Of a DNA stretch of 38,034 nt, positions 3,198 through 38,026 are shown in pieces. The translations under genes were made by a program, and so were the position numbers. Location of the stretch: the IMG/VR virus record IMGVR_UViG_3300032116_000576, positions 1 to 38,034 of that record; one strand, written 5' to 3'. Within the stretch, counting starts at the first letter, position 1; the number at the start of each line of letters is the position of its first letter. This DNA comes from a virus. A model generated the notes under the pieces. That model did no database searches, had not been told where the DNA came from, and was given only the letters and a program-made list of their open reading frames with translations.

Positions 3198-4403
3198 ATG
3201 AATATAAAGTTAGAATATGTTTGGTTAGACGGTTATTCACCTGAACCAAATTTAAGAAGTAAAGTTAAAGTTATTAGCACAAGTAAGTTGGTTTTTGACT
3301 TAAATGATATTCCTGAGTGGAATTTTGACGGCTCATCAACCCAACAAGCGGAAGGTTCAAAATCTGATTGTATTTTGAAACCAGTAAGATTATATCATAA
3401 ACCATTGAGTGATAGAGTTTATGTTTTTTGTGAAGTTACAAATCCTGATGGGACACCACATGAAACAAACTTACGTTCTGAGTTAGGTCAGGAAGATGAA
3501 AGTATTTGGTTTGGTTTTGAACAAGAATACTTTATCCGAAAAAACAATGGAAATGTTTTAGGTCATGATGCACAATATGTTGAACCACAAGGAAAGTATT
3601 ATTGCGGTGTTGGGTCAAAAGTTGTTGGGAGAGATTTTGTTGAAGAACATTTAGATTTTTGTTTATCCCACGGTATAGAAATTACAGGAGTAAATGCTGA
3701 GGTTGCTTTAGGTCAATGGGAGTTCCAAGTTTTTTCTAAAGGTAAACTTAAAGCTTGTGATGACCTTTGGATGTCAAGGTACTTCTTAGAAAAAATTTCT
3801 GAAAAATATGGTTATATGGTAGACATACACCCAAAACCATTAAGAATGGGAGAATGGAATGGTTCAGGGTTACACACTAACTTCTCAACAGATAAAATGA
3901 GAAACGTTGGTGGTGAAAAGTATTTTCAAGCTTTGTTCTCCTCTCTTGAATCTAGAAGAGAACAACACATCAAAAATTATGGGTCAGATAATCATATGAG
4001 ATTAACTGGTAAATTCGAAACTCAATCAATTGATAAGTTTTCAGTTGGAGTTAGTGACCGAGGAGCGTCAATAAGAGTACCCGCACAAACTGTTACAAAT
4101 AATTGGAAAGGATATCTTGAAGATAGAAGACCAGCATCAAACGCCAATCCTTACAATGTGGTATTTGAATTAATTGAAACCTTAAAAATGGCGGATGAAT
4201 TAAGTGAAGCTCTAAATAACATGTACTCAAATGTCAATATGAAAAAATTTGACGAGATAAGAGAAAAATATAATGGAATTCCTAGCTCTGACGAATTATT
4301 GAACGAGTACAGGGATGATAATGATTTTGAGGTCGATTCTGAAACCATGAAAGGTTGGAACATACCTTCCGAAGAAATAAAATTTGGTTTAAATGGAAAA
4401 TAA
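3198..4403 (+). CDS. Glutamine synthetase, type II (GSII/GlnII-like)
   Basis: Glutamine synthetase makes glutamine from glutamate, ammonia and ATP in the cytoplasm. The type II (eukaryote-like) signature is clear: WNFDGSST at 41-48, EQEYF near 109, GVNAEVALGQWEFQV at 164-178, NGSGLHTNFS at 221-230, HMRLTGKFET at 266-275, SDRGASIRVP at 286-295 and YLEDRRPASNANPY at 306-319. These cover the metal, glutamate and ATP sites, so it looks catalytically complete. At 401 residues it is somewhat longer than usual GSII proteins because of a roughly 70-residue helical C-terminal extension after residue 330. It sits inside a phage-like operon with DNA methylases. It may raise glutamine supply for nucleotide synthesis during infection, or act in a non-metabolic role. 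The family call is very secure; the role is inferred. Confidence 0.95.
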   Translation: MNIKLEYVWLDGYSPEPNLRSKVKVISTSKLVFDLNDIPEWNFDGSSTQQAEGSKSDCILKPVRLYHKPLSDRVYVFCEVTNPDGTPHETNLRSELGQEDESIWFGFEQEYFIRKNNGNVLGHDAQYVEPQGKYYCGVGSKVVGRDFVEEHLDFCLSHGIEITGVNAEVALGQWEFQVFSKGKLKACDDLWMSRYFLEKISEKYGYMVDIHPKPLRMGEWNGSGLHTNFSTDKMRNVGGEKYFQALFSSLESRREQHIKNYGSDNHMRLTGKFETQSIDKFSVGVSDRGASIRVPAQTVTNNWKGYLEDRRPASNANPYNVVFELIETLKMADELSEALNNMYSNVNMKKFDEIREKYNGIPSSDELLNEYRDDNDFEVDSETMKGWNIPSEEIKFGLNGK

Positions 4404-6845: not shown

Positions 6846-7988
6846 ATGGAAAAAACTCTATTTACAGAATCTGAACTTAAAAACAGAATCGCTGAGATAT
6901 ACGAAGAAGAAAGACTCAAAATAATAAATGAAAAGTGGTCTAAGTTATCAGGTAAAGACAGAACATTTGTTCTTGAATTTTTAAAGGCTTTACACCCTGA
7001 AAAGGCAATGTTAGTCACTGAAGCTAGATGGTACAACACACTCGGTGACATCGTAGGTATATTCGACCCAACAGGAATCGTCGATTTAATAAATGGTATT
7101 AGTTATTGGAGACAAGGTGATAAATTATTTGCTATTTTATCATGGGTTTCTGTTATACCTTATTTTGGAGATTTGATTGCGAAACCTGTTATTGGTCTAA
7201 TGAAAATGGGTGGAGGAGCAGCCAAAGCTTTTAAAGCCGCAACTTTGACGGGTGACGTGGTAAAAATAGGTAAAACCGCTAAAACCGCGGGAGGTCCTAT
7301 TGCAAAAATGGTTGAAAAAGCCCCAAGTTGGGGAACTAAACTAATGGACGTATTAAAAAGTGCGGTAGGTAAAGTTCCTGGATTAGGAGGTTTAATTAAA
7401 GTCATCGAGGAATACGTTACAATATTTAAAGGGGCTAGTAAAGAGATGAAAGTCTCTAAAGAGATAACAGGTAAGTTGGCGGCTAAAGCGGAAAAACAAG
7501 CGTTAAGTAAATCTGAAAAAGATATTTTGGCGGCTGAACTTAAGAAACAAGACCAATTTAGAGGTTTTAGGGATTACACAGGTGCAGGACAATCTTGGAG
7601 AGCAAAATACATTTCAGGTGGAATGGGAAGATTATGGGGTAATCGAGCTACAAGGTCTTTGATGAGAAGAACTAAATGGTATTTGGGTCTACTTGACTTT
7701 TTAGGTGTCGCAAATTTTGTCGGACCTAGTGAGTTGGAACAGAAATATGCCGATTTGGAAGCAAAAATTGATGAATACAATAAAACAAAAGAGGCTCAAC
7801 AATATGCCGAGGAAGAGTTTGGAGACGTTATCGGAAATGTACAACCACCTCAACCACCTCAAACACCTCAATCTCCGACAGGACAACCATCTACAGGAAC
7901 AGGTAGTGGTATGGATGTGGTAAGTGTTTTAGGTTCATTATTCTCAGGTGGAGGCGCAGGTTCGAAAGCATTAGGAAGTTTGATATGA
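6846..7988 (+). CDS. Hydrophobic/Ala-rich putative virion protein with Pro-rich tail (380 aa)
   Basis: The protein starts MEKTLFTESELKNRIAEIYE, a variant of the recurrent late N-terminal peptide. Residues 66-118 (GDIVGIFDPTGIVDLINGIS, then YWRQGDKLFAILSWVSVIPY and FGDLIAKP) resemble the hydrophobic, Gly/Pro-punctuated segment found before the toxic domain of some polymorphic toxins and in phage structural proteins. Residues 120-240 are Ala/Lys-rich helices. The C-terminus has a PPQPPQTPQSP repeat (about 335-350) and a Gly-rich end. No catalytic motif is seen. It overlaps the next gene by ATGA. It could be a membrane-interacting protein delivered by the virion; this is inferred. Confidence 0.8.
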   Translation: MEKTLFTESELKNRIAEIYEEERLKIINEKWSKLSGKDRTFVLEFLKALHPEKAMLVTEARWYNTLGDIVGIFDPTGIVDLINGISYWRQGDKLFAILSWVSVIPYFGDLIAKPVIGLMKMGGGAAKAFKAATLTGDVVKIGKTAKTAGGPIAKMVEKAPSWGTKLMDVLKSAVGKVPGLGGLIKVIEEYVTIFKGASKEMKVSKEITGKLAAKAEKQALSKSEKDILAAELKKQDQFRGFRDYTGAGQSWRAKYISGGMGRLWGNRATRSLMRRTKWYLGLLDFLGVANFVGPSELEQKYADLEAKIDEYNKTKEAQQYAEEEFGDVIGNVQPPQPPQTPQSPTGQPSTGTGSGMDVVSVLGSLFSGGGAGSKALGSLI

Positions 7989-9394
7989 TGAAAAAATTAA
8001 TAGTTGAAAGTGGTTTAAGAGAAATTAATGCACTTGCGAAAAGGTATCCTAAGGCTGAAATATATTTTCATCAGGACTTAGATGGAGTTACGACCGCAAT
8101 CGCAATGAAACATTATTTAGAAAATAATGGAATTAAAGTTGTTGATGCTCACGTAATACAATATGGGGATAAAGAGTTTGCGGTTAAGAAGAACGATGCT
8201 CAAGGAGATACGATGCCTGTTTTAGTTGATTTTGCTCACGGAAAACCCATGTTTATTATTCACACTGACCATCATGACAGACAAGCAGGTGCTGAAGACA
8301 CGAAGTCAACTTCTTTTAGACAATCTAGGTCAAATGTCGAAACAATTTCTCAAGTGGTTTCTCCAAAAGATATTTTTACGTCAGATGATTTATTATTAAT
8401 ATCCACAGTTGATTCCGCTAATTATGCGGTAAACCAAATTTCAGTCGACCAAGTCATCAACTACCTTTTCAAATTGGACACTAATGAAAGTGTTAAAAAG
8501 AATAAGATGGCGTTAGGATTGGTTGCAAACAAACTATTGTTGGCGTTTAAAAATAAGCCAGGGTTTCTTGAAGAGTTAGTTATGGTGACAAAGCCATCAA
8601 TATTGAACTTATTACTCAACATCAAAAGGATAATGGTTGAGAAAGGATACGCCTCAATTCCTGAATTGGAGAAAAACAAAGAGGAGTATATCAAACAAAT
8701 GAAAACTCACCCAAACGTAAAAATTGATGGTAATATTATTGTACAATATGGTGGAGGTAAAATGACATCTCCAGGTTCTTATGATAGATATACCCCGTTC
8801 AAAAATAATCCTGAAGCCGACTTTATAGTAATTGCATGGCCTTTAGGATTAGTACAAGCTTCATGTAACCCCTTCAAAAAAGAGAGGGAATTGAAAGGAG
8901 TTAATTTGGGTGAAATTGCTCAAGAAGTTTTAGGTAAATGGGAAGGACAATTAAAAGAACGAGAAATTCCATTATCAACTATTAAATGGATTTCTGAATC
9001 CGCAAAAGATTTTGGAGCAGAATCTGTTGGTTTTACATTCAAAGACTTTGTTGCGTTATATGGTAAGAACTTTAAAACAATGGACAACGGTAGAGAAATG
9101 TTAACCCACATAGGGGAAATGATGAACGTTCCATTTAAAGATTTACCTGAAGAACATAAACAAATGTTAGACGATATTACAGTAAACGCTTGGGATTTGA
9201 TACAAGCAAACTCTGGAGGACACAAATGTATTACAAATATTTCGGGATTAAATTATATGGGAAGAAGTAAAAGACCACCACAAGGAAGTTACAAGTATAA
9301 TCCTGATAAGGAAGATTCCCCTTATGTTAAGTTTACCAAAATGATTCAGAATGAATTTGTTAGAGTTTTGAAAGAAAAAATCAATACTCAATAA
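7985..9394 (+). CDS. DHH/DHHA1 family phosphoesterase (469 aa)
   Basis: DHH-family enzymes cleave phosphodiester bonds with two metal ions (RecJ nucleases, NrnA oligoribonucleases, GdpP cyclic-dinucleotide hydrolases). Here FHQDLDGVTTA at 28-38 is motif I, VDFAHG near 81-86 is motif II, HTDHHDR at 93-99 is the DHH motif, and SGGH near 410-413 is the DHHA1 substrate-binding motif. The two domains are separated by a long insert (about 130-330). The exact substrate is unclear. The start may be ATG 7985 or 7988; the latter gives MKKLIVESGLREINAL, which resembles the packaging-type peptide of other late proteins. It is coupled to the preceding virion-like gene and overlaps the convergent DUF192 gene by 14 bases. 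Confidence 0.88.
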   Translation: MMKKLIVESGLREINALAKRYPKAEIYFHQDLDGVTTAIAMKHYLENNGIKVVDAHVIQYGDKEFAVKKNDAQGDTMPVLVDFAHGKPMFIIHTDHHDRQAGAEDTKSTSFRQSRSNVETISQVVSPKDIFTSDDLLLISTVDSANYAVNQISVDQVINYLFKLDTNESVKKNKMALGLVANKLLLAFKNKPGFLEELVMVTKPSILNLLLNIKRIMVEKGYASIPELEKNKEEYIKQMKTHPNVKIDGNIIVQYGGGKMTSPGSYDRYTPFKNNPEADFIVIAWPLGLVQASCNPFKKERELKGVNLGEIAQEVLGKWEGQLKEREIPLSTIKWISESAKDFGAESVGFTFKDFVALYGKNFKTMDNGREMLTHIGEMMNVPFKDLPEEHKQMLDDITVNAWDLIQANSGGHKCITNISGLNYMGRSKRPPQGSYKYNPDKEDSPYVKFTKMIQNEFVRVLKEKINTQ

Positions 9395-9750: not shown

Positions 9751-10173
9751 ATGGAGAGAACTAAACGATATGGAGGTATCATTGTAAAATGTAACAATGA
9801 AGTTCTTTTATGTAAAAGAAATAATTTTGGTGATTTACCTGGTGTATGGTCTATTCCTGCAGGGAAATTAGGTAAAACTGAGAATGCGTTAGTTGGGGCT
9901 AAAAGAGAATTTTTTGAAGAAACTAACATAGAAGTAAAGGATAATATTAAATTGGTTGGTTTTATAAATAGAAAAACTAGAGATGGTGAATCAACAAAAG
10001 GGTTAATGTATGTTTTTCTATATGAAGTTAATGAAAAAATTTATCCTGATTTAGAAAATGCCATTGATGGGGAAGAACATACGGAATGTGGGTATTTTAC
10101 AGAAGAAACCCTACCAATGGATAAAAATGACCAACTTTATCTACTAATTAAAAATATTTTAAATAAAAAATAA
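9751..10173 (+). CDS. NUDIX hydrolase (140 aa)
   Basis: NUDIX enzymes hydrolyse nucleoside diphosphates linked to another group. The NUDIX box runs from G38 to I60 with G38, E44, R52, E53, E56 and E57 all present; only the late Gly of the consensus is Asn (N59). The flanking pattern YGGIIVKCNNEVLLCKRN and LPGVWSIPAGK is typical. I chose ATG 9751 because the upstream extension encodes a hydrophobic stretch without similarity and overlaps the divergent gene. The substrate cannot be read from the sequence. No clear promoter element is seen on this strand in the 28-base divergent spacer. Confidence 0.92.
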   Translation: MERTKRYGGIIVKCNNEVLLCKRNNFGDLPGVWSIPAGKLGKTENALVGAKREFFEETNIEVKDNIKLVGFINRKTRDGESTKGLMYVFLYEVNEKIYPDLENAIDGEEHTECGYFTEETLPMDKNDQLYLLIKNILNKK

Positions 10174-10204: not shown

Positions 10205-10282
10205 CATAAAGCCCAACAACCCCTTTCATAGTTGGTTGATATTAACCCTAACAAGAGTAAAATTTTGTTAGGGTTTTTTTAT
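10205..10282 (+). ncRNA. Candidate small RNA (about 75 nt) or 3' UTR element
   Basis: Between the TATTTAT element at 10194 and the terminator there is no coding frame, but there is a stem (CCAAC near 10213 with GTTGG near 10231) followed by the strong terminator hairpin. This would give a two-hairpin RNA of about 75 nt. It may equally be the NUDIX 3' UTR. Confidence 0.3.
10244..10281 (+). terminator. Rho-independent terminator after NUDIX gene
   Basis: An 11-bp perfect inverted repeat (10244-10254 with 10265-10275), a ten-base loop and a run of T to 10280. Confidence 0.88.
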
Positions 10283-10291
10283 TTTTTTTCT

Positions 10292-10299
10292 TATCTTTG
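10292..10299 (+). promoter_or_regulatory. Bacteroidota-type promoter (TATCTTTG) for smpB
   Basis: TATCTTTG matches the TAnnTTTG -7 element of the Bacteroidota primary sigma factor. It ends eight bases before the ATG of smpB, so the transcript would have almost no leader. A TTTG lies at 10264-10267 but at 24 bp the spacing is long. Confidence 0.6.
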
Positions 10300-10307
10300 T
10301 TTTTGAT

Positions 10308-10733
10308 ATGAAGAATTCAGTACATATAGAGAATAGAAAAGTTAGACACGACTATTTCATTGAAGATACTTACACTTGTGGTATTATGTTAACGGGACCC
10401 GAAGTTAAAATGATAAGACAAGGTAAAATGTCTTTTCCTGATTCATTTTGTTATTTTAAAAACGGGGAATTATTTCTCAAAAATTCACAAATCCAAGGAA
10501 TTGGAAATGATAATATCGGTAGAGAAAGAAAACTGTTATTAAAAAAGAAAGAACTCCAAAAATTAGAGTCTAACTTAATAAAAGGTTATTCTATATTACC
10601 ATATAAAGTTTTTACCAACGAGACAGGTTTAATAAAGATTGAAATAGTTCTTGCTAAAGGAAAAAAATTGTATGATAAAAGAAATTCAATCAAAGAAAGA
10701 GATTTAGATAGAGAAATGGAAAAACAATTTTAA
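10308..10733 (+). CDS. smpB: SsrA-binding protein SmpB
   Basis: SmpB binds tmRNA and carries it to stalled ribosomes for trans-translation. The family pattern is clear across the length: NRKVRHDYFIEDTYTCGIML, TGPEVKMIRQGKMSFPDSF, the RERKLLLKKKELQKLES segment, and the C-terminal KGKKLYDKRNSIKERD with the DKR motif. At 141 residues it is slightly shorter than cellular SmpB, lacking a few N-terminal residues and part of the C-terminal tail (it ends EMEKQF). No tmRNA is recognisable in the window. It sits behind a host-type promoter. A phage copy is unusual; it might rescue ribosomes using host tmRNA or alter that pathway. The family call is secure, the role inferred. Confidence 0.93.
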   Translation: MKNSVHIENRKVRHDYFIEDTYTCGIMLTGPEVKMIRQGKMSFPDSFCYFKNGELFLKNSQIQGIGNDNIGRERKLLLKKKELQKLESNLIKGYSILPYKVFTNETGLIKIEIVLAKGKKLYDKRNSIKERDLDREMEKQF

Positions 10734-10734
10734 T

Positions 10735-10971
10735 ATGGAGAAAAGAAGTAATCACTATGGAGATGTGTCAAAATGGATTGAAAAGGTAATTGATTCTTGT
10801 GAGACGTATCAACAAACTTTTGTTGTAAAAAAATTAATTTCTAATTTTAGAAAACAATTGATGAAAAACCGCCCCCAAAAGTTTTGGAATGAGTATCAAC
10901 CTGAGGTGATTTGGAGATTGGAGGCGTTATTAATTTCTAAAAGACAATCTTTTATAGGTAAATCTGAATAA
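10735..10971 (+). CDS. Small basic hypothetical protein after smpB (78 aa)
   Basis: The frame begins one base after the smpB stop, so the two are probably co-transcribed. The product (MEKRSNHYGDVSKWIEKVID at the start) is basic and helical. No family is recognised. Its position suggests a function linked to translation or simply to the same expression phase. Confidence 0.7.
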   Translation: MEKRSNHYGDVSKWIEKVIDSCETYQQTFVVKKLISNFRKQLMKNRPQKFWNEYQPEVIWRLEALLISKRQSFIGKSE

Positions 10972-11840: not shown

Positions 11841-12116
11841 ATGATAACAGTATATTACAATATCAAGATAGAACACGAAAAATTTGGAGTGTTAGTTAGC
11901 GAATCTTTTGTAGACCAAACTCAATTTAAGTTGTTTCTTAAAATGGTGAATGGGTGTTTAGAATTGAAAAACGACCTGACCTTTTTCAACGGGATAGACT
12001 TCTTAGTACACGTCCCTTACAAATACCTTGTTGATTCGATTGTATTGGCATCAAGTTCTCCATACAGTTTGTCGGACTATGCTAAGAGTAAAATAGAGGC
12101 TTTAGTAACTAAATAA
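11841..12116 (+). CDS. Hypothetical protein (91 aa)
   Basis: The protein starts MITVYYNIKIEHEKFGVLVS and looks like a compact alpha/beta fold. No family is recognised. It has its own probable promoter and lies eight bases before a small membrane protein gene. Confidence 0.7.
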   Translation: MITVYYNIKIEHEKFGVLVSESFVDQTQFKLFLKMVNGCLELKNDLTFFNGIDFLVHVPYKYLVDSIVLASSSPYSLSDYAKSKIEALVTK

Positions 12117-24855: not shown

Positions 24856-25593
24856 ATGAGTTTATTTAATTTTTATGAAGTCGGGGGTAAGGTAAGGGAT
24901 GAAATCTTAGGATTGCAGTCCAAAGATGTTGACTATGTTGCAGTCCCCAACGACGCTCTTTTGGAGAAGTACAAAAGTGCTTATGAGATGTTTGTAGTTC
25001 TTGAATCTTACCTTAATAGTGAAAAGTTCGAGATATTCTTATCAACTCCCGATTGTTTTACAATTAGGGCAAAATTCCCGAAAAATCATAAGTATCAAGG
25101 AGTTGCCGACTTTGTTATGGCTCGTAAAGAAATTGGTTATGTTCCTGAGACAAGAACACCAATCGTTAGACCTGGAACTCTTTTCGATGATTTAGAGAGA
25201 CGTGACTTTACCTTGAATGCTCTTGCAAAAGATGAAGACGGGAATATCATTGATTATTTTGATGGTATGGAAGATTTGAAAAATGGTCTTCTTAGAACTC
25301 CATTACCGACTGAAAAAACTTTTGACGATGACCCTTTGAGAATTCTAAGAGCAATTCGGTTTTCAATTACCAAAGGATTCAAAATCCCTGCGACCATGGC
25401 AATAACTATTGATTGTTATAACTATGAAAAACGTATGGGAGTCGTCTCAACCGAAAGAATTAGAGAAGAATTATTAAAATGTTTTAAACATGATACTCTT
25501 GAAACGTTGAAAGTGTTAAATGAATTTCCTATGCTTAAGAACTATATCTTCAAAAATAATATTTTGTGGTTAAAACCAACAATGGAACAATAA
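24856..25593 (+). CDS. tRNA nucleotidyltransferase / poly(A) polymerase family (CCA-adding type), short
   Basis: Class II CCA-adding enzymes and poly(A) polymerases add nucleotides to RNA 3' ends. Here the head domain shows VGGKVRDEILG at 9-19, KDVDYVAV at 23-30 with the metal-binding D24/D26, LERRDFTLNALA, IDYFDGMEDLKNGLLRT, and DDPLRILRAIRF. The first half is complete, but the protein ends at 245 residues whereas bacterial relatives are usually 380 or more, so most of the body and tail domains are missing. No tRNA gene is seen in this window. It may mature phage tRNAs encoded elsewhere, repair host tRNAs, or add tails to RNA. Confidence 0.9.
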   Translation: MSLFNFYEVGGKVRDEILGLQSKDVDYVAVPNDALLEKYKSAYEMFVVLESYLNSEKFEIFLSTPDCFTIRAKFPKNHKYQGVADFVMARKEIGYVPETRTPIVRPGTLFDDLERRDFTLNALAKDEDGNIIDYFDGMEDLKNGLLRTPLPTEKTFDDDPLRILRAIRFSITKGFKIPATMAITIDCYNYEKRMGVVSTERIREELLKCFKHDTLETLKVLNEFPMLKNYIFKNNILWLKPTMEQ

Positions 25594-32806: not shown

Positions 32807-34078
32807 GTGATAGTAGAAAAACTTAAAAATATTCCCGAATTTCCTGGTTGTTATCTTTTCAAAGATGAGAAGGGACAGATAATTTATGTCGGGATGTCAA
32901 AGTTTTTACCAAAAAGAGTGACATCCTATTTCCAAAAAAATCATACCGATACTAAAACAATTGCTCTTGTTGAGAACATCAAGGATGTTGATTTTATAAT
33001 ATCTTCATCTGAACAAGAAGCTCTTTTATTAGAGGAAGATTTAATCAGGACTTACAAACCAAAATTTAACATTAAGGGGAAAGATGACAAGTCAAGGAAG
33101 TGGTCTATATGTCTCACAGATGAAGAATTCCCTAAGTTAGAGATTATCAGAAATAAAATTGATGACAGAAAATCATTAGATTTTACAAATGGTTTAATCT
33201 GTAAAGAAGTTCATGATATGATTGGGAGAGTTCTCAGTTTGAGAACTTGTTCATATGTTTTGTCTGAAGAAAATATTCAAAAAAACAAGTTCAAGGAGTG
33301 TTTAGATTATCACTTACAAAAGTGTGATGCACCATGTGTTTCAGGAATCAGTAAGTTTCAATACTCAATCATTGTAAAACAAGTAAACCGAATTTTTGAT
33401 TTGGATTTTTCAGGACTAAAAAAAGATTTGAAAAAACTGATGAAGTATTTGTCGGAAAATCTTGAGTTTGAAAAAGCGAACATGGTTTTACACAAAATAA
33501 AAACTATTGATGAACTTGAGAAAAAATTAGAAGTAATCAGAGTTCGAAAATACAATAAAACCGCCTTTGAAATCAAAAAAAGTTTGGGGTTGAAAAAAAT
33601 ACCAAACATAATTGAAGCTTTCGATAACTCACATAATCAAGGTGATTCTAATGTTGCGGCTTCAGTTAGATTCGTTAATGAAAAACCTAACAAATCTGAC
33701 TACAGAAAGTATAATATTAAAACCTTCAAAGGAGTAGATGACTACGCGTCTTTTGATGAGGTTCTAAATAGACGTTTTAAGAGACTTTTGGATGAAAAAC
33801 AACAACTACCTGACTTGGTAGTTATTGACGGTGGTAAAGGTCAATTAAATGTTGCAAAAAACGTATTTGATAACTTGGGTATTACAGAAAAAATAGATTT
33901 GGTCTCAATCTCAAAAGATAAAGGACATAAAAGTTCTATTATCCACACAACTGACGGTCAAACTATTGAAATTAAAAGTGATAAGATTTATTCTGTTTTA
34001 GGAAAAATCCAAGAAGAAGTTCATAGATTTGCTATTAAGTTTCACAGAGAAAAACAATCTAAAAAATTACTCAATTAA
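32807..34078 (+). CDS. Compact UvrC-like excinuclease subunit (423 aa)
   Basis: UvrC makes the two incisions in nucleotide excision repair. The N-terminal GIY-YIG domain has FPGCYLF and IIYVGMSK with catalytic E76 in EALLLEED. Four Cys (C148, C165, C173, C177) match those that hold an iron-sulfur cluster in cellular UvrC. The UVR segment (ENLEFEKANMVLHKIK) is near 217-232. The RNase H-like nuclease keeps D273 (EAFDNSH), D341 (VVIDGGKGQL) and H406 (EVHRFAIKFHR). At 423 residues it lacks the C-terminal helix-hairpin-helix pair and has a shortened segment after the UVR motif; cellular UvrC is about 600. The start is GTG. Both nuclease sites look intact. It overlaps the convergent gene by 12 bases. 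Confidence 0.93.
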   Translation: MIVEKLKNIPEFPGCYLFKDEKGQIIYVGMSKFLPKRVTSYFQKNHTDTKTIALVENIKDVDFIISSSEQEALLLEEDLIRTYKPKFNIKGKDDKSRKWSICLTDEEFPKLEIIRNKIDDRKSLDFTNGLICKEVHDMIGRVLSLRTCSYVLSEENIQKNKFKECLDYHLQKCDAPCVSGISKFQYSIIVKQVNRIFDLDFSGLKKDLKKLMKYLSENLEFEKANMVLHKIKTIDELEKKLEVIRVRKYNKTAFEIKKSLGLKKIPNIIEAFDNSHNQGDSNVAASVRFVNEKPNKSDYRKYNIKTFKGVDDYASFDEVLNRRFKRLLDEKQQLPDLVVIDGGKGQLNVAKNVFDNLGITEKIDLVSISKDKGHKSSIIHTTDGQTIEIKSDKIYSVLGKIQEEVHRFAIKFHREKQSKKLLN

Positions 34079-35338: not shown

Positions 35339-35368
35339 AAAAAAGGAGGTTTAAACCTCCTTTTTTTA
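35339..35368. terminator. Bidirectional rho-independent terminator
   Basis: A long palindrome centred near 35352 (AGGAGGTTTAAACCTCCT core) is flanked by A on the left and T on the right, so it can stop transcription from both the 34942 gene and the convergent 35366 gene. Confidence 0.88.
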
Positions 35369-35974
35369 TTTAATATCAGTTGACTCTATCAGAGTATATG
35401 AAAATTTATTTCCGTGAATTTTTGCCGCCTTTTTACAGATAGACATAAATACATCAAAATCTTTTACTCTTTTAAATACCTGACAACCCTCACTCCAATT
35501 CTCGACCCACTGAGAGTCTTGTCCTGCTTTGTGGATGTTAATACCAAACATACCAGTATCTGTTTTCGTTTCCTCAAAAATAAGGTCTTTGTTTGCATCC
35601 CTCCAAACAGTTACATTTCCTAATCTTTGACAAAGTGCTTCGTATTTTCCTTGGTGTAAATCAATTTTCCACACACCTCTGTATTGTCCTGGTACTAATC
35701 TTGCAACACCATTTTTATTATGGAATTGTTGAACACCTTTTTTACCTGGGTCACACGTTGCCATCCAACAGTAGAATTGTTCAACACCTTTCTCATCTTT
35801 AAATGTTAATGTAAGACAATCATCAAACACATTTGTTACTTTTTTTGCAACTGATGGTGAGTTATTTCTTACTCCTACGATATTCACATCATAACCTTTG
35901 TTTGCGGTATCTTCAAACCATTTATACCCTTTGGATTTAACTGACGTTTCAATTTGTTCTTTTGTATAACACAT
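35366..35974 (-). CDS. Putative L,D-transpeptidase-like / cell-wall-active protein (202 aa)
   Basis: The C-terminal half contains FGINIHKAGQDSQWVENWSE followed by GCQVF. A His followed after about a dozen residues by S-x-G-C resembles the active site of YkuD-type L,D-transpeptidases (His ... S-x-G-C), which act on peptidoglycan. The ending FMSICKKAAKIHGNKFSYTL fits the same C-terminal strand pattern. The N-terminal half (DVNIVGVRNNSPSVAKKVTN; WMATCDPGKKG; VPGQYRGVWKIDLHQGKY) is beta-rich. No signal peptide is found, so a virion-borne or lysis role is possible. The family match is by motif only. Confidence 0.62.
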   Translation of the reverse strand: MCYTKEQIETSVKSKGYKWFEDTANKGYDVNIVGVRNNSPSVAKKVTNVFDDCLTLTFKDEKGVEQFYCWMATCDPGKKGVQQFHNKNGVARLVPGQYRGVWKIDLHQGKYEALCQRLGNVTVWRDANKDLIFEETKTDTGMFGINIHKAGQDSQWVENWSEGCQVFKRVKDFDVFMSICKKAAKIHGNKFSYTLIESTDIK

Positions 35975-35997: not shown

Positions 35998-36029
35998 TTA
36001 TCTATTTTGAAAAGTAAAGAGTTAGTTGA

Positions 36030-36036
36030 TATTTAT
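36030..36036 (+). promoter_or_regulatory. TATTTAT late-type promoter element
   Basis: TATTTAT, TGTT, ATG 36041: canonical four-base spacer. Confidence 0.68.
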
Positions 36037-36040
36037 TGTT

Positions 36041-38026
36041 ATGACAAAACTTTCAAAGATATCCTTATTTATTTCGGTAATTATTATGATTGCCTTTTTT
36101 ACCACACAATCATTAGTTGTTTTTAAATTTATAAATTATATCGATGAGGTCGGTTATTTTGGTTACGCTTGTTTTTTGGCGTTTTTACCATTTTTCGCGG
36201 TCGTTGTTTTAGAATATGTAAAAAGAAATAGAATTGGTAAAAACCATAATAAGTATATTAAAGAATTAAATAATACACTTTTATCACAGTCACATAATCC
36301 TTTATTTTATGAAGGGAATACAACAGAAGGAGCTAAAGTACTAACTAAAGAAGTTACAGAATCGATAAGCGCCGATAGATGTTCAATATGGTTATACAAT
36401 GAAGATAAAACCGCAATTATATGTGAACAATTATATATTAAATCTGAAGATAACTGGTATCAGAATATAACTCTATATAAAAAAGATTTTCAACCATACT
36501 TTTTATCATTATTAATAAACCCAATCATTATTGCAAATGATGCCGAATCACATACGGCAACTTCTTGTTTTACTGAAACATATTTAAAACCACTTGGTGT
36601 AAAATCTATGTTAGATGTCCCTATTGTTTATCGTGGGGAAACGATTGGGGTTATTTGTATTGAGTCATTAACTCTTAGAGATTGGGATAATGCTGAAGTT
36701 AATTTTGCCCAACTATTATCATCCCTTTATACTTTTGCTTATTCAGTTAAAGAAGGAAACGATTTATTAAGAAGAAATAAAGAAACTGAAAACTTCTTAA
36801 ATGAATCATCAATTATATCAGTTACCGATAAGTATGGTAAAATCACATACGTTAATAAAAAATTTGAGGAAGTTTCAGGTTGGTTGTTAGATGAAGTTAA
36901 AGGTAAGGACCATAGTGTCGTTAACTCTGGATTACAACCTGATGGGTATTGGGGAAAGATGTATGAAAAAGTAATGAAAGGTGAAATATGGAACGATGTT
37001 GTTACCAATAAAGGAAAGTCAGGAGAACTATATTATGTTGATACATATATTAGAGCAAAATTCGATAAAGACGGTAAATTAGAAGGTTTCTCATCAATTA
37101 GACAAGATGTTACGGACCTTAAGAAAAAAGAAGTTGAAATTCGTAATAGAATGAACGCAATAAATAAATCTAATGCAGTTATTGAGTTTGATTTAGAAGG
37201 GAATATTATTTTTGCTAACGACTTATTTTTAAATACTATGGGGTATTCATCAATCGATGAAATAGTCGGAAAACATCATAGAATATTTATAGATGAGGAA
37301 CATTTAAAAAGTGAAGAATATAATCTTTTTTGGAAAAAATTAAATGATGGTATATTATTTACTGGTGAAATCACTAGAATCAAAAAGGACGGTTCTTTAG
37401 TATATTTACAGGCTACCTACAATCCTATTATTGGTTTGGACGGTAAAATTTATCGTGTTATGAAAATTGCAACAGATGTCACCACTACTCACGAACAAAA
37501 GAAAGAGATTGAAAAAAAGAACACTTATTTGGAACACGCGGCTAAAATATTAAGACATGATATGCACTCAGGTATTAACACATATATGCCAAGAGGGTTA
37601 AGTTCATTAGAAAGAAGATTAAGTTCTGACGACATTACATCATTAAATATTGAAGCGCCTATTAGAATGATTAAAGAAGGGTTAAAACACTCTCAAAAAG
37701 TTTACAAAGGTGTTTATGAGTTTACCAATTTAGTTAAAAAGGATGTTGTTTTAAATAAGACAGAATGTAATTTAAAAACCATACTTAATGATTATTTGTC
37801 ATCAACTGTGTACAGTAGTCAAGTCATTATTGAGGATTTACCAACTATAGAGGTGAACGAAGCATTATTCTGTACTGCGGTTGACAACTTAATTAGAAAT
37901 GGGTTAAAGTATAATGATTCAGATACTAAGTTTGTTAAAATTTATTCTGATGGGAATAATATCCATATACAAGATAATGGTAGAGGAATCACACAAGAAG
38001 ATTTTGACCACCTACGTAAACCATAA
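36041..38026 (+). CDS. Membrane sensor histidine kinase (2 TM, GAF, PAS, PAS, HisKA, broken ATPase domain)
   Basis: ATG 36041 follows a TATTTAT element by four bases. Two membrane helices (about 7-32 and 38-60) are followed by a GAF-like domain (about 88-240), PAS (about 255-360) and PAS (about 378-480). The phosphoacceptor is H506 in AAKILRHDMHSGIN, and the ATPase N box is DNLIRNGLKYND at 615-626. DNGRGI (645-650) is the G1 box. The frame then stops at residue 661, before the F and G2 boxes. The bases after position 38021 in another frame encode I-R-K-E, the expected continuation, so a one-base shift or sequencing error near 38021-38026 is likely. No response regulator is in the window. A full-sized histidine kinase is rare in phages. 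Confidence 0.85.
   Translation: MTKLSKISLFISVIIMIAFFTTQSLVVFKFINYIDEVGYFGYACFLAFLPFFAVVVLEYVKRNRIGKNHNKYIKELNNTLLSQSHNPLFYEGNTTEGAKVLTKEVTESISADRCSIWLYNEDKTAIICEQLYIKSEDNWYQNITLYKKDFQPYFLSLLINPIIIANDAESHTATSCFTETYLKPLGVKSMLDVPIVYRGETIGVICIESLTLRDWDNAEVNFAQLLSSLYTFAYSVKEGNDLLRRNKETENFLNESSIISVTDKYGKITYVNKKFEEVSGWLLDEVKGKDHSVVNSGLQPDGYWGKMYEKVMKGEIWNDVVTNKGKSGELYYVDTYIRAKFDKDGKLEGFSSIRQDVTDLKKKEVEIRNRMNAINKSNAVIEFDLEGNIIFANDLFLNTMGYSSIDEIVGKHHRIFIDEEHLKSEEYNLFWKKLNDGILFTGEITRIKKDGSLVYLQATYNPIIGLDGKIYRVMKIATDVTTTHEQKKEIEKKNTYLEHAAKILRHDMHSGINTYMPRGLSSLERRLSSDDITSLNIEAPIRMIKEGLKHSQKVYKGVYEFTNLVKKDVVLNKTECNLKTILNDYLSSTVYSSQVIIEDLPTIEVNEALFCTAVDNLIRNGLKYNDSDTKFVKIYSDGNNIHIQDNGRGITQEDFDHLRKP

Follow-up and report, generated by a model that had tools for sequence, protein, structure and literature searches.

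A phage-encoded SmpB with a host-length C-terminal tail and a shortened central loop in a conserved viral gene block

The smpB locus and its viral gene block

The window analyzed here is a linear virus record of 38,034 bases. Its last open reading frame (ORF), a histidine kinase, ends within a few bases of the end of the record and looks cut, and the window is therefore taken to be a fragment, one piece of the genome of a large freshwater phage. It carries a genuine, apparently intact smpB gene (Table 1). The product of 141 residues matches PF01668 (SmpB) over profile positions 2-140 of 143 with 156.7 bits (4.7e-46), far above the curated cut-off of 27 bits, and matches phrog_6791 of the PHROGs with 3e-39. 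Together with the KGKKLYDKR motif, this bears out the initial annotation of the gene as an SmpB with the DKR motif. An AlphaFold2 model computed with 35 relatives as input has a mean pLDDT of 86 and a pTM of 0.73 and predicts the OB fold of SmpB, followed by a C-terminal helix spanning residues 120-140; confidence is lower for the last 20 residues, with block means of about 65-81. Foldseek returned 20 matches to the model at E <= 0.001, all 20 of them SmpB structures, with 7ljp (2.1e-13) and the ribosome-bound 4v8q (8e-12) among the top matches.

Table 1. Position of smpB, its parts, its neighbors and other features of the window
Feature	Position	Strand	Basis and remarks
Glutamine synthetase-like protein	3198-4403		Unusual phage gene
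DHH-family-like protein	7985..9394	+	PF01368, 1.8e-4, under the curated cut-off; viral-family marker
Nudix hydrolase	9751..10173	+	PF00293, 1.9e-15; upstream border of the SmpB slot; neighbor conserved in relatives
Terminator-like hairpin and T-run	10244..10275	+	Intrinsic-terminator scan; 13 pairs, T-tail; between the Nudix gene and smpB
TATCTTTG	10292..10299	+	16 nt upstream of the smpB start codon; look-alike of the Bacteroidota -7 box, suggestive only
smpB	10308..10733	+	Stop codon within coordinates; OB-fold SmpB with KGKKLYDKR decoding motif and helical C-terminal tail (predicted)
Codons of the shortened central loop GIGNDNIG	10497..10520	+	Residues 64-71; five residues below the bacterial norm
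KGKKLYDKR motif and 16-residue C-terminal tail	10656..10730	+	Residues 117-141; tail length and residue comparison with E. coli SmpB
78-aa ORF	10735..10971	+	ATG one base after the smpB stop
91-aa conserved ORF	11841..12116	+	Downstream border of the SmpB slot; present with or without SmpB
tRNA nucleotidyltransferase-like protein	24856-25593		Unusual phage gene
UvrC-like GIY-YIG/RNase H nuclease	32807-34078		Unusual phage gene
Endolysin-like protein	35366-35974	-	phrog_33083, 6.9e-10; 83-86% identity in several relatives
PAS/GAF histidine kinase	36026-38026		Unusual phage gene, cut by the contig end

Of the 50 ORF starts in the window, 8 have the sequence TAnnTTTG, exemplified by the element upstream of smpB, in the 50 nt before them, where about 2 are expected; this excess is compatible with a Bacteroidota host and proves nothing. 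The 78-aa ORF that follows smpB adjoins the SmpB gene in four related loci as well (L174, L176, L179, and L227) and has no match in Pfam or PHROGs. About ten otherwise unrelated ORF products of the window have a similar leader at the N terminus, of the form MKxLIRxILKEE or MKxxITExxL (ORFs 635, 7985, 15362, 19585, 21475(-), 23628(-), 29357, 31820(-), and 34602). These putative leaders resemble the signal that targets the internal proteins of T4 to the capsid.

The DHH-family-like protein has 240 relatives in IMG/VR, and the viral loci of the best 80 of the 240, at 79-91% identity, were compared for gene order. The order MTase - ORF - DHH - Nudix - [SmpB] - ORF 11841 - ORF 12322 is kept in these loci, and 50 or more related viral contigs share it, usually with SmpB in the same slot between the Nudix gene and the downstream ORF. 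The slot is occupied in loci L002-L009, L013, L015, L018-L022, L170-L184, L196-L198, L204, L221, L227, and others, and lacks SmpB in L185-L190, L192, L199-L202, L210, L222, L230, L244, and others. A contig of 318 kb (G044), from a lineage without SmpB in the slot, carries the gene elsewhere, at 62.5-62.9 kb, with a tmRNA (61.2-61.6 kb) under 1 kb away. G044 has the same gene block as the window together with a T4-like portal and a terminase, and therefore the block belongs to a tailed phage. Thus, the gene order conserved in dozens of related viral contigs answers the initial concern that the contig might be bacterial chromosome, and the parallel concern that related phages might lack the gene applies to the slot in one lineage, whereas SmpB is present in dozens of other relatives and in G044 at a different place.

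A phylogeny with host SmpBs, called for in the initial annotation, puts the window SmpB into a group of 35 rows that contains only phages and stands next to the Bacteroidota SmpBs, with moderate support (86, inner group 93). Because the gene block is a conserved viral one and the clade is restricted to phages, smpB is a viral and not a host gene in this window. An old acquisition of SmpB by phages, with Bacteroidota affinity, is likely rather than shown because the support of the tree is moderate. Pairs of relatives with usable dS gave dN/dS values of 0.02-0.30, indicating purifying selection; the values apply to close relatives only, the synonymous sites of the window protein itself being saturated.

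The gene had initially been described as rarely reported in phages, a view that has to be given up. SmpB matches were obtained in 66 records of a phage collection, including Lak phages and phages of 634-735 kb, and at about 130 different loci in IMG/VR (two scans), and huge phages have been reported to encode tmRNA and SmpB (Al-Shayeb et al. 2020, PMC7162821). Some of the IMG/VR matches (L023, L032, L064-L068, and others) come from host smpB-ssrA pairs that border prophages; there, a structural descriptor locates ssrA near smpB. The huge phages (LR745206, 634 kb; LR756502, 642 kb; LR756501, 735 kb; and Lak phages; PMC7162821) resemble the present case in having SmpB in a large phage genome, and in two of them, LR745206 and LR756502, the DHH protein of the window has a relative too. 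However, their SmpBs are only about 39-45% identical to the window SmpB, have a central loop segment of 29-31 residues instead of 25, and lie in a different gene neighborhood. No dedicated study of phage SmpB was found in the open-access literature searched. SmpB genes of huge phages were known before, and the finding is in itself mostly ordinary; the loop type and the arrangement in two places, described below, are the points that deserve attention.

C-terminal tail and central loop

Because the C-terminal tail had initially been called short, its length was compared with that of other SmpBs. The window SmpB has 16 residues after the DKR, its nearest viral relatives have 15-17, and E. coli SmpB has 21. 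Chromosomal SmpBs of Chitinophagales and Cytophagales have 14-19 and those of Flavobacteriia mostly 20-22, so that the description as short fails. The last tail residue aligns with residue 155 of E. coli SmpB, and the tail is predicted to be helix-forming. The numbering of the E. coli reference sequence used here is consistent with the residues named in the cited papers. The window protein is identical to it at positions N17, H22, Y24, G33, E40, and R88-K89-L90-L91-L92 as well as at K131-G132-K133-K134, D137-K138-R139, K143, and R145. It fits the decoding motif KGKK-x-[HY]-DKR, with Tyr at the position of E. coli His136, as in nearly all Bacteroidota.

The exchange of His136 for Tyr in SmpB has been reported to have only a minor effect (PMC4151336). 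Removal of the last five residues of E. coli SmpB leaves tagging unaffected, whereas removal of two more affects it (PMC8363625). Because the length is host-like, the end falls at residue 155, the decoding-center and mRNA-channel residues are kept, and the His136Tyr difference is minor, the tail is judged from these comparisons to be normal for Bacteroidota-type SmpBs. A short tail as the source of the small size of the protein was ruled out against about 160 SmpBs.

The window SmpB is short overall because its central loop, not its tail, is shortened. In an alignment of 163 distinct SmpBs, 80 of them bacterial, the segment from LFLK to RKLLLK comprises 25 residues in the window protein versus 30 in 79 of the 80 bacterial SmpBs, so that the full-length loop is lacking. 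The loop GIGNDNIG is common to the window SmpB and those of L170, L173, L175, L177, L180, L182, L221, L227, and L010; L010 and L395, both with the short GIGNDNI loop, have a tmRNA on the same contig. Chromosomal Bacteroidota SmpBs (e.g. Chitinophagales L090-L093) are 50-56% identical to the window SmpB and share its KGKKLYDKR motif and its range of tail length (14-19 versus 16), but they differ in the loop segment (30 versus 25) and branch apart from the phage-only group.

The central loop is reported to touch the tRNA-like domain, and some accepted SmpBs from highly reduced genomes have none (PMC4131195); because accepted members can do without it, the assignment of the window protein to SmpB stands despite the short loop. 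Central-loop residues have also been lost in the SmpBs of Carsonella, Hodgkinia, and hemoplasmas (PMC4131195). In those proteins, however, the loop is missing, the genomes are highly reduced, and Carsonella has lost the tail as well, whereas the window SmpB lacks five residues, keeps its tail, and has relatives under purifying selection.

Two further loop variants were observed among viral SmpBs. The sister SmpBs of L181, L183, L184, L196, L197, and L204 have a loop segment of 23 residues, 7 short, and carry RRNKSYEKK or RRNKNYDKK in place of the decoding motif KGKKLYDKR. The dN/dS of this group is 0.03 in the single usable pair, indicating purifying selection, and the group is possibly a repurposed SmpB. 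In the viral SmpB of L028:8215-8562, with 120 aa, the central loop is almost wholly gone (LFLNDIKLLLN).

The probable tmRNA partner

Neither a tRNA nor a tmRNA was found in the 38-kb window by ARAGORN or Rfam, and the search for a tmRNA with a structural descriptor or a phage-trained HMM was likewise negative. The initial statement that no tmRNA is visible is thus true of the window by four methods, but it does not carry over to a meaningful absence, because the window is a fragment and portal-bearing SmpB relatives carry tmRNA. In the kin group, 10 out of 10 SmpB contigs with a T4-like portal have a tmRNA (G044, G057-G060, G064-G066, G072, and G073), about seven of them independent, as G057-G060 look like near-copies. 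The tmRNA of G064 lies just under the Rfam cut-off and scores 2.9e-93 with the phage model. Contigs without the portal have no tmRNA, with the exception of L395. No tmRNA was found by search in two slot contigs of 200 and 215 kb (G046 and G010). The portal is missing from both, as are the Clp and peptidase genes between which the tmRNA of relatives is situated; therefore, the tmRNA region is not covered by those contigs.

The tmRNA loci that were found from the peptidase side are of two kinds, one with an adjoining SmpB (most of L405-L431, and L433) and one without SmpB beside the tmRNA (L432, L434-L439, L442, L444-L449, L451, and L452). The latter would be the kind expected of phages with SmpB in the slot. 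Searches from the SmpB side and from the tmRNA side found no contig that joins slot SmpB and tmRNA, and because no single contig carries both, their pairing is one that we infer. The two contig types share 3 of about 20 samples, as judged by eye, an overlap that is uninformative.

A ClpA/ClpC-like AAA unfoldase (L258:6857-8905) lies some 2.3 kb away from the tmRNA of G044 and is conserved at the tmRNA locus in relatives; it could degrade the tagged proteins. The tag frames of the phage tmRNA loci L405-L452 are long and have a common motif, e.g. KMALVGLVRQDELVNVA, KMSAVGLIRAEEVVVA, and KLSAVGLVRTEEVAVA. The tag frame in the tmRNA of L010 and L395 is NNMEVAGLLATSKVAA.

The SmpB-encoding phages LR745206 and LR756502 yielded no tmRNA with Rfam RF00023 or ARAGORN. 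Homologous tmRNA-like genes were located at equivalent places in the two genomes (L290:9891-10274 in LR745206 and L324:17479-17860 in LR756502). In both, the 7-bp acceptor stem includes a G3-U70 pair (the identity element for alanine), and between the two genes there is a compensatory change. The element AACGNNAACG precedes the tag frame, and the T-stem loop is GGGCGGTAC or GGGCAGTGC, replacing the usual TTCGANN, with the consensus GGGCRGTRC. The tag of LR756502 ends with ISVGDLAVA. An HMM trained without these genes matched them weakly (E of 0.03 and 0.75), and their later strong scores come from a model that includes them. As a control, the structural descriptor produced 5 matches in 4.7 Mb of shuffled sequence, none of the 5 with the AACG element. 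An SmpB without a tmRNA was rejected for LR745206 and LR756502, the weak HMM matches at equivalent places being tmRNA-like genes. Calls of SmpB without tmRNA are unreliable when they rest on fragments or when Rfam and ARAGORN are the only tools used, because these two published huge phages hold divergent tmRNA-like genes missed by both tools.

Possible role in ribosome rescue

The locus is best explained by a functional phage SmpB, the partner of which is probably a phage-encoded tmRNA outside the 38-kb fragment, with the host tmRNA as a fallback. Direct support extends to the family, the predicted fold, the functional residues, the conserved slot, purifying selection in relatives, the phage-only clade, and the tmRNAs in relatives; activity, partner, and benefit we infer. 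By homology, the protein would bind the tRNA-like domain of tmRNA, and its C-terminal helix would enter the mRNA channel left empty when a ribosome stalls on a truncated mRNA. The alanyl-tmRNA brought in by SmpB would then free the ribosome and provide the unfinished protein with a degradation tag. The phage might benefit because ribosomes would remain at its disposal despite the breakdown and truncation of mRNAs in the course of infection. Support of rescue during infection, as initially suggested, is thus the best reading, given the functional residues kept, purifying selection in relatives, and relatives with tmRNA.

A phage without a tmRNA of its own might instead pair its SmpB with the host tmRNA and so raise or maintain trans-translation of the host while the infection lasts. 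The protein matches Bacteroidota host SmpBs in tail and decoding motif, and tmRNA was found neither in the window by four methods nor in the 200- and 215-kb slot contigs. However, the genome region in which relatives have their tmRNA lies outside those contigs, a tmRNA is present on all SmpB contigs on which a portal gene was found, and the central loop, the reported contact to the tRNA-like domain (PMC4131195), is unlike the host type; this alternative is accordingly given a minor chance. It had also been proposed that the protein competes with its host counterpart, a dominant-negative effect that might arise from a shortened tail or loop. The loop is indeed five residues short, and in the sister group it is 7 short and the decoding motif is replaced. 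Tail mutants of SmpB keep tmRNA and ribosome binding (PMC4151336), so that the sister group could conceivably be inhibitory, the window SmpB less readily. The latter has lost neither tail nor decoding residues: the tail is host-length and reaches residue 155, the residues that accommodation reportedly requires are conserved, relatives evolve under purifying selection, and L010 and L395 with the same short loop also carry tmRNA, all of which makes competition quite unlikely.

A different role, such as RNA binding or regulation without trans-translation, is conceivable since regulation by SmpB alone is reported for Aeromonas veronii (PMC4468919), and in the slot lineage the gene is not adjacent to a tmRNA. 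Yet all ribosome-engaging residues are conserved and no positive evidence for another role was obtained, leaving this role highly improbable. An artefact, in which a host gene lies on a misassigned bacterial contig or a prophage edge, would agree with the many smpB matches in IMG/VR for which the host smpB-ssrA pair sits at the end of a prophage. A prophage edge accounts for that part of the database matches, not for the window locus, which has the same neighbors in dozens of viral contigs, an SmpB within a phage-only clade, and its block repeated in the 318-kb contig with T4-like portal and terminase; an artefact is extremely improbable here.

The window SmpB joins known cases of phage-carried trans-translation parts, namely the tmRNA genes of mycobacteriophages, Bacillus phage G, and methylophage Melnitz (PMC4131195, PMC9004378). 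Those papers describe the RNA, whereas in the window it is the protein that is present and the RNA is found only in relatives. The picture of a rare, short-tailed, tmRNA-less phage SmpB is corrected: large aquatic phages with this gene block appear to carry a complete rescue system, in some lineages split over two places in the genome. A tentative and rather doubtful extension is that the short loop is a shared adaptation making the phage SmpB specific for the distant phage tmRNA, in which case SmpB, tag, and Clp-type unfoldase of the phage would form a private trans-translation parallel to and insulated from that of the host. If the loop change does mark specificity for phage tmRNA, these phages would be a naturally occurring case of a private pathway for trans-translation.
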